The translations under genes were made by a program, and so were the position numbers. Below, one piece after another: positions 1,276 to 2,410 of a stretch of 64,000 bases of DNA. The stretch covers positions 310,001 to 374,000 of the forward strand of contig NZ_RBXP01000011.1 of assembly GCF_003634965.1 (NCBI RefSeq). Direction: 5' to 3'. The stretch comes from Azonexus fungiphilus (GTDB lineage Bacteria > Pseudomonadota > Gammaproteobacteria > Burkholderiales > Rhodocyclaceae). Every line of letters starts with the position of its first letter. Positions within the stretch are counted from its first letter, which is position 1. The notes below the pieces were generated by a model. The model did no database searches. It had not been told where the DNA came from and worked only from the letters and a program-made list of their open reading frames with translations.

Positions 1276-1593
1276 TCAGCAGCATTCCTCCTCGACCTGG
1301 AAGAGCAGTTCGAGCGCTTCCAGGTCGTGGCATTCCTCGAAGAACTCGCGGATTTGGTTGATGTGCGAATGAACCAGGAAGAGGTCGTCGGGCGCCGGCC
1401 CGCTCTTCGGCGTGCGCTTGGCCATGAAGTAGTTCCAGAACGGCTGCTCGCGGCCGCTGGCGACGATGTTGCGGGCGATCATCTCCATCACCCGACGGGC
1501 ATTGCCGGCACAGTCGATGCCGTCGAAACTGACATAGCGGTCGGTATTCCTGCTGCAGCCGCAAGCCGGCTGGCGATCCTGGGCGGTTTCCAT
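1276..1593 (-). CDS. cowN: CowN, CO-protection protein of nitrogenase
   Basis: A small soluble protein of 105 residues. The core RYVSFDGIDCAGNA, the FLVHSHINQIREFFEE segment and the C-terminal EEECC are those of the CowN family. Known of the family: CowN lets nitrogenase keep working in the presence of carbon monoxide, and in Rhodospirillum rubrum cowN is switched on by CO through CooA/RcoM. The start is ATG at 1593, with AAGGAG six bases upstream; a longer open frame upstream is not needed. The gene lies 77 bp downstream of a CooA-like regulator on the same strand and has its own CooA-type box in the gap. It implies that the organism carries nitrogenase genes elsewhere. Confidence 0.9.
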   Translation of the reverse strand: METAQDRQPACGCSRNTDRYVSFDGIDCAGNARRVMEMIARNIVASGREQPFWNYFMAKRTPKSGPAPDDLFLVHSHINQIREFFEECHDLEALELLFQVEEECC

Positions 1594-1650
1594 CGGTGGC
1601 TCCTTGAACGGTCGATGGCGGCATCTTGCCAGCCGACGCCGGGGCGCGTC

Positions 1651-1666
1651 CGTCGGCTGGCCGACA
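1651..1666 (-). promoter_or_regulatory. CooA-type box upstream of cowN
   Basis: On the minus strand the sequence reads TGTCG-GCCAGC-CGACG. This matches the CooA consensus TGTCG-N6-CGACA in 9 of 10 fixed positions. Its centre is about 42 bp upstream of a plausible start point (about 1616) given by a -10 like hexamer CAAGAT at 1628-1623. That is close to the class II position (-43.5) known for CooA-dependent promoters. An overlapping inverted repeat (1631-1638 with 1651-1658) may instead be a weak hairpin behind cooA. Confidence 0.55.
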
Positions 1667-1670
1667 GTCG

Positions 1671-2324
1671 CTAGATTTCGGCGCCGAGGCGGCGCAGGCT
1701 GTCGAGCGTGTGGATGTAGAGCACCCGCCGGCCCTGGCGACGGAGGATGCCGTCGCGCTCCCACTGGTTGAGCAGCGACGACACCGTCTGCCGGGTCGAG
1801 CCGAGCAGGCTGGCGATGTCCTCGGTACCGAGGTCGAGCGGCACCAGCCAGATGCCGCCGTCGAGCGGCCGCCCGCGGCGTTCGGCAAGGCCGGTGAGGA
1901 AGCGCGCCAGGCGTGCCGGCACCTCGCGGAAGGCGAGATCCTCGATCAGGTTGACTGCATTGACCAGGAGGCGGCCGAGGACGCGCATCATCACCGGCGT
2001 CACCGCCGGATCGCTGGCCAGCTTGCGCGCGAAACGGCGGGTTTCCATCAACCAGACGGTGGTCGGCACGACCGCCTCGAGATAGGTCGGCGTGTGGGTG
2101 GTGTAGATGTCGCCCGGCTCGAGGAAGCTCAGGCTGAGTTCGCGGCTTTCACCGGCCAGGTAGACGCGTAGCCGCCCCTGGTCGACGATCAGCACCTGGT
2201 CGCGGGCATCACCCGGCGTTGATAGCAGGTAGCCGCGGGCCAGTTCCTGGCGTGCGAAGCCCTCGAGCATGCCGGGCGGAATGCGGGGAAGCGAGACGAC
2301 GGGCGCGGGTTCGACGGCGTTCAT
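1671..2324 (-). CDS. cooA: CooA-like CO-sensing CRP/FNR-family regulator
   Basis: 217 residues in CRP/FNR order: an N-terminal sensor domain, a long dimer helix (about 105-135) and a C-terminal helix-turn-helix (DIASLLGSTRQTVSSLLNQW). The sensor contains GRLRVYLAGESRELSL followed by GDIYTTHTP. Counting from ATG 2324, the histidine is residue 77, the position of the haem ligand His77 in R. rubrum CooA; residue 75 is Thr where R. rubrum has Cys. This numbering supports ATG 2324 over an ATG 18 codons further up. Known: CooA binds CO at haem and then activates transcription. The assignment rests on this His77, the GRLRVYL block, a perfect CooA box in front of the gene, and cowN behind it. Another haem-dependent CRP/FNR subgroup is the main alternative. 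Confidence 0.8.
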   Translation of the reverse strand: MNAVEPAPVVSLPRIPPGMLEGFARQELARGYLLSTPGDARDQVLIVDQGRLRVYLAGESRELSLSFLEPGDIYTTHTPTYLEAVVPTTVWLMETRRFARKLASDPAVTPVMMRVLGRLLVNAVNLIEDLAFREVPARLARFLTGLAERRGRPLDGGIWLVPLDLGTEDIASLLGSTRQTVSSLLNQWERDGILRRQGRRVLYIHTLDSLRRLGAEI

Positions 2325-2394
2325 GGTCGACAGAAAGCAAGCCGCGGACCACCAGCCAAAGCGCGCCGGCAGGGGCATCCGACAGGCTTGCGCC

Positions 2395-2410
2395 TGTCGT
2401 CAACCCGACA
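2395..2410 (-). promoter_or_regulatory. Perfect CooA box upstream of cooA
   Basis: The sequence TGTCG-TCAACC-CGACA fits the CooA consensus TGTCG-N6-CGACA at all ten fixed positions. It lies 71 bp upstream of the cooA start, in the 90-bp gap behind the mutarotase gene, and suggests autoregulation by CO. On the minus strand the spacer region includes TTGACG, which could serve as a -35 element. A second perfect inverted repeat (CGACAGGC-TTGC-GCCTGTCG, 2380-2399) overlaps the box and could form a hairpin behind the upstream gene. Confidence 0.6.

Follow-up and report, generated by a model that had tools for sequence, protein, structure and literature searches.

In Rhodobacter capsulatus (Hoffmann et al. 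2014, J Bacteriol 196:3494), NifA reportedly activates cooA, CooA together with CO reportedly activates cowN, and cowN is said to protect the Mo-nitrogenase. In Gluconacetobacter diazotrophicus, passages of PMC8047169 describe the gene order algH-cooA-cowN with a CooA site approximately 60 bp upstream of cowN, call cooA probably RpoN dependent, and propose a wiring that runs from NifA through CooA to cowN. According to the same passages, cowN of this organism is 30-fold up when nitrogen is being fixed and higher with CO, CO has no effect with ammonium, and CowN has been shown to sustain nitrogenase turnover under CO. In Rubrivivax gelatinosus, cooA likewise adjoins cowN, apart from the CO dehydrogenase genes, and the passages of PMC4257681 that describe the pair mention no NifA site for it; that organism, unlike the pair described here, has CO dehydrogenase and RcoM (passages of PMC4257681). 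CooA of Rhodospirillum rubrum, a haem CO sensor of the CRP family with a palindrome of the TGTC type, shares these traits with the regulator predicted here.

The pair described here lies near the start of a 64-kb window (the whole stretch of DNA analysed, 64,000 nt). A cooA-like gene (1671..2324, minus strand; 217 aa, ATG at 2324) is followed on the same strand, after a gap of 77 nt, by cowN (1276..1593, minus strand; 105 aa), which has an AAGGAG ribosome site just upstream by eye and whose product scores over the cut-offs of both family models, NF033689 (124.1 bits, cut-off 48) and PF20543 (128.4 bits, cut-off 27). The host genome also contains nifH (473 bits) and nifA (667 bits), both over cut-offs, together with nifE, nifN, nifB and nifV over theirs. 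These nif genes are found on contig C8 and the cooA-cowN pair on contig C1, whereas the R. capsulatus pair is said to lie beside nifHDK. The gene before cooA encodes an aldose 1-epimerase homologue (PF01263), in place of the algH of G. diazotrophicus (passages of PMC8047169).

Both genes named in the first-pass annotation, a CooA-like regulator with His77 and then cowN, were thus recovered, and its two box matches, a perfect TGTCG-N6-CGACA before cooA (10/10) and a 9/10 match before cowN, held on recounting. It had further proposed a free-standing CO-response circuit distinct from the coo operon of R. rubrum. The pair does stand alone, and a search of the host genome for the CooS CO dehydrogenase gave no match (the control search was positive in 5 of 14 named genomes), which sets it apart from the R. 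rubrum coo regulon and supports its description, on genome content, as a free-standing pair without CooS; a CO dehydrogenase regulon was ruled out by the same absence. As a circuit it is not new: published work already describes both the adjacency of cooA and cowN and the control of cowN by CooA, and the window pair adds a new member.

We consider it very probable, judging from sequence comparisons, that the locus encodes a two-step circuit in which NifA and sigma54 drive cooA, CO-bound CooA drives cowN, and CowN protects nitrogenase from CO. Under nitrogen-fixing conditions, NifA at 2395-2410 would activate a sigma54 promoter at 2337-2351, so that cooA would be made with the nif regulon. CooA would hold its haem via His77, and a change of haem ligation caused by CO would lead the dimer to bind 1651-1666 and to activate a sigma70 class II promoter of cowN, whose product would keep nitrogenase turning over under CO. 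Such a circuit would act as an AND gate in which cowN expression calls for both nitrogenase synthesis and CO; CooA autoregulation probably lies outside it. The wiring of the R. capsulatus genes is reportedly the same, with NifA acting on cooA and CO-CooA on cowN. In this lineage, near Azonexus and without the CooS CO dehydrogenase, nitrogen fixation is probably coupled to a CO sensor in this way.

The cooA box and the predicted sigma54 promoter

Promoters recognized by sigma54 carry a -24/-12 consensus of the TGGCACG-N4-TTGC type. An element of this kind, TGGTCCGCGGCTTGC (2337..2351, minus strand), is predicted upstream of cooA, with TGGTCCG and TTGC on either side of CGGC, 9 of 11 consensus positions in agreement, and its end 12 nt before the cooA ATG. 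It lies 43 nt downstream of the box TGTCGGGTTGACGACA (2395..2410, minus strand), the CooA box of the first-pass annotation, in which the arms TGTCG and CGACA (10/10) enclose the interior TCAACC. The same letters fit both TGTCG-N6-CGACA and the NifA site pattern TGT-N10-ACA (passages of PMC8047169 and PMC10590331), and we predict this box to be a NifA upstream activator sequence of cooA. Within the 64-kb window, an upstream activator sequence combined with a sigma54 element (9/11) was found only before cooA; the reversed control gave 1 match.

Perfect TGTCG-N6-CGACA palindromes number 16 in the 3.55 Mb of the host genome, and 9 of them fall at C8:58-151 kb, the contig stretch with nifH and nifA; this clustering in the nif region changed our reading of the cooA box. 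Nine TGT-N10-ACA sites at C8:50-165 kb have a sigma54 element (at least 9/11) 20-130 nt downstream, versus 0 in the reversed sequence, and 10 of the 15 perfect palindromes fetched (of 16), that of cooA included, have one of at least 8/11 at 40-65 nt. The combination stands before nifE, nifN, nifB and nifV too. Ten open reading frames (ORFs) lie behind the nine sites and a tenth whose element reaches 8/11; NifE, NifN, NifB, NifH, NifV, RnfA and an A-type Fe-S protein were identified among them over cut-off, and the remaining three comprise a 2Fe-2S ferredoxin below cut-off and two ORFs without a match. The ORFs at C8:103578-104129 and C8:108368-109204, each behind a NifA-type site with a sigma54 element, gave no NCBIfam match at 1e-10. 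Elsewhere in the host genome (L003, C1:441726), an ORF follows another perfect palindrome of the NifA type that is accompanied by a sigma54-like element (8/11); the first 52 residues of this ORF match Flavodoxin_1 just under the cut-off (24.2 of 25 bits).

The two site types were also compared using simple matrices built from few sites (10 NifA sites of the host genome, selected for having a sigma54 element nearby, and 25 cowN operators). The matrices overlap: three cowN operators reach 18.2 with the NifA matrix, and the cowN operator of L062 scores 10.2 with one matrix and 10.3 with the other. The cooA box of the window scores 19.0 bits as a NifA site and 13.9 as a CooA operator, and for the corresponding boxes in eight related loci the ranges are 10.6 to 18.3 and -5.6 to 7.3, respectively. 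Given the sigma54 element below it, the like arrangement of nif promoters, and the NifA-type scores of the related boxes, the cooA box is better explained, as far as sequence can tell, as a NifA upstream activator than as a CooA site.

Both proteins might use the box, with NifA driving cooA from the sigma54 promoter and CO-CooA raising or damping cooA from the same position. The arms are common to both site types, and the 13.9 bits of the window box are the top CooA score among the NifA-type boxes compared, all ten NifA sites falling below it (-2.3 to 12.0). Overlapping CooA and NifA sites have moreover been described before cowN in G. diazotrophicus (passages of PMC8047169), whereas no sigma54 element of at least 8/11 stands before cowN in the window; matches of 8-9/11 were seen there in 3 of 26 loci. 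Dual use of the cooA box is not conserved in relatives, however, and the interior GGC..GCC of cowN operators is only partly present in it, which leaves this reading rather unlikely.

Predicted NifA control of cooA was followed through 32 cooA loci, 26 of them with cowN, one (L024) without, and five more with cowN; the window itself is counted as L047, and some of the relatives' loci may be the same or sister strains. L024, which has cooA and no cowN match on its 5.2-kb contig, does not enter the pair counts, and L035, L036 and L037, having no in-frame ATG, stand outside the 29-locus sigma54 count. In 12 of the 29 loci, the chosen ATG follows the end of a sigma54 element (at least 8/11) by 12-13 nt; the reversed control gave 3 scattered matches. 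Five loci have the element at 35-40 nt and L024 at 28 nt, where another upstream ATG, which was not counted, would give 13 nt. Since 9 of the 29 loci, all at most 60% identical, have no sigma54 element within 150 nt of cooA, the predicted NifA control is not general. Among ten loci compared in which the element is close to the ATG, a box resembling an upstream activator sequence lies 42-52 nt above it in 9 (window included), mostly with one or two changes, and TGT-N10-ACA is intact in 3 of 10 (the window, L021 and L023).

With the element only 12-13 nt before the ATG, a nearly leaderless cooA mRNA is predicted, with a leader of 0-3 nt. No ribosome site was seen by eye at 2325-2351. The distance to the start is 28-66 nt for nine of ten nif-region promoters and depends on the start chosen for the tenth. 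A terminator-like site at 2340-2357 overlaps the sigma54 element and is no more than shuffles give.

The cowN box as a predicted CooA operator

The box upstream of cowN, TGTCGGCCAGCCGACG (1651..1666, minus strand), is well supported as a predicted CooA operator by its conservation and its matrix score. It is important to note that its 9/10 match means little alone, because patterns with at most one mismatch occur 109 times in the host genome against 90 for the backwards pattern, and because two further 9/10 matches lie in the window (31370 and 33712); conservation carries the assignment. Of the 31 loci with an adjacent cooA, 30 have the pattern NGTCR-N6-YGACN in the roughly 200 nt upstream of cowN; of the 15 without one, none has it (Fisher 3e-11, computed on related loci as if they were independent, so that the counts overstate independent support). 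Absence of an adjacent cooA is defined here as no match to the window CooA at E<1e-20 in the fetched stretch, approximately 1.5 kb on each side. The one locus of the 31 that fails the strict pattern, L027, fits the palindrome TGTCGGCYRGCYGACR with two mismatches. This intergenic palindrome is kept, interior included, in most of 26 loci, and the interior GGC..GCC is nearly invariant at cowN operators. The matrices, with the overlap given above, assign the window cowN box 22.9 bits as a CooA operator and 9.6 as a NifA site.

In the host genome, TGTCGGCYRGCYGACR is perfect only at the cowN site. A search for a wider CooA regulon in this genome, at up to two mismatches to TGTCGGCYRGCYGACR, returned 83 and 73 matches on the two strands, compared with 77 and 74 for the backwards control, so no wider regulon is proposed. 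The loci with cowN and no cooA in the fetched stretch, in which the operator pattern is missing throughout (15/15), are L040, L045, L051, L055-L061, L063, L080, L082, L083 and L089.

The first-pass annotation had placed a -10-like sequence at the class II distance from this box. Among 30 operators (that of the window included), 28 have a -10 hexamer of at least 4/6 at 21-22 nt after the box, and at control spacings not overlapping the -10 at most 4 of 30 reach 4/6; the exceptions are L088 and the window itself. In the window the predicted sigma70 -10, CAAGAT (1623..1628, minus strand), is weak, agreeing with TATAAT at 3/6 and assigned on the basis of spacing, and scanning 1200-2600 with the plain sigma70 consensus yielded no promoter. 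The spacing thus stood up across relatives, and the -10 of the window itself less well. The predicted operator centre, at about -42.5, fits class II activation.

One could instead suppose that most cowN transcripts start at the cooA promoter and run through both genes as an operon, and that the intergenic box carries little weight. The common strand, the 77-nt gap, the failure to find a terminator-like site between cooA and cowN, and the missing sigma70 consensus would all suit such an arrangement. Against it stand the conservation of an operator and a -10 at fixed spacing and the absence of the operator where cooA is not adjacent, and we regard read-through as unlikely to be the main route of cowN expression.

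The two boxes compared and the regulator

From the perfect box before cooA, the first-pass annotation had predicted that CooA controls its own gene; on this reading CooA would bind both boxes and activate cowN and cooA without NifA. The cooA box does fit, with 10/10 arms, 13.9 bits, and a sequence within two mismatches of the full operator. Conservation argues otherwise: a box with CooA arms precedes cowN in 30 of 31 loci and cooA in only 9 of 32, and when the full operator of the cowN type is required, at up to two mismatches, just 2 of 32 cooA loci have one upstream, the window and L054. Together with the low CooA scores of the eight related boxes, the sigma54 element below the cooA box, and the marking of nif promoters by the same palindrome pattern, this makes control by CooA without NifA quite improbable, and autoregulation by CooA alone was discarded as the main interpretation. 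The predicted circuit probably does not include CooA autoregulation, which is neither conserved nor supported by the comparison, although the window box itself could still be a CooA target. A perfect "CooA box" can accordingly be a NifA site, both patterns fitting one palindrome, and the two are told apart only by the interior bases and by the type of promoter below (sigma54 or sigma70).

Because NifA sites and CooA operators have the arms TGTCG/CGACA in common in this lineage, CO-CooA may in addition occupy NifA sites, that before cooA and perhaps those of nif promoters, such that CO would directly damp or tune the nif regulon, with cooA translated from a NifA-driven, nearly leaderless mRNA; we give this extension of the circuit little credence. 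Cross-binding through the common arms, if it takes place, could give CO a direct effect on nif genes. A figure legend of PMC8047169 has nifK of G. diazotrophicus slightly lower with CO, which by analogy would be weak support at best for CooA binding at nif promoters.

The two-step circuit requires that the regulator be a CO sensor. Alignment with characterised CooA proteins, as proposed at the outset, agrees with this: against PDB sequences the regulator scores 136.9 bits to Carboxydothermus hydrogenoformans CooA and 122.7 to R. rubrum CooA, versus 67.6 for the best non-CooA chain, and His77 is invariant (26 of 26 aligned proteins). Residue 75 is Thr in the window regulator (Thr 13, Ser 10, Cys 2 and Ala 1 across 26 loci), and residue 2, counted from an inferred start codon, is Asn; 8 of the 11 closest relatives carry Glu or Asp there. 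The Cys75 and Pro2 of R. rubrum CooA (ligands according to passages of PMC6955866) are consequently not conserved. With the R. rubrum-type ferric ligand Cys75 missing, and apparently also the N-terminal Pro/Ala ligand of studied CooA proteins, the ferric ligand of the predicted protein differs from that of R. rubrum CooA and the second haem ligand probably does; another amino group could serve. Cys75 is not defining for the CooA family, since CooA of C. hydrogenoformans is said to use Ala2 and His82 as ligands, without a ligand change (passages of PMC6955866).

NCBIfam gave only CRP/FNR-type matches to the regulator, far below their cut-offs. A predicted model of middling quality (pLDDT 77, pTM 0.46) retrieved CooA chains as the four best by E-value, yet their TM-scores reach only 0.48-0.53, below those of some other CRP-family chains (0.61 for Thermus thermophilus CAP). 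TM-scores thus do not separate CooA from other CRP proteins, and for this model the fold search says little more than that the regulator belongs to the CRP family. That the regulator is instead a non-haem, or NO- or redox-sensing, CRP/FNR protein would accord with its Thr75 and Asn2, the low NCBIfam scores and the better fit of CAP, but is very improbable with CooA structures best by both sequence and fold E-value, an invariant His77, and cowN beside cooA in 7 of the 8 loci found with the CooA protein alone.

The closest loci by protein search belong to Azonexus hydrophilus (82-84%) and to a MAG labelled Dechloromonas aromatica (86%). A search for a viral relative of CowN found none. In plasmid records, the search brought up a single cooA-cowN pair, in Rhodobacter sp. 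CZR27, and a single helix-turn-helix protein of Azospirillum that has no annotated cowN nearby. The cowN sample comprised 37 places in 34 of 199 genomes, 30 of these places being fetched as loci, and broader draws had cowN in 5 of 398 and 8 of 399 genomes, the host genome being counted in each. Three genomes (G011, G109 and G156) have two cowN matches each.
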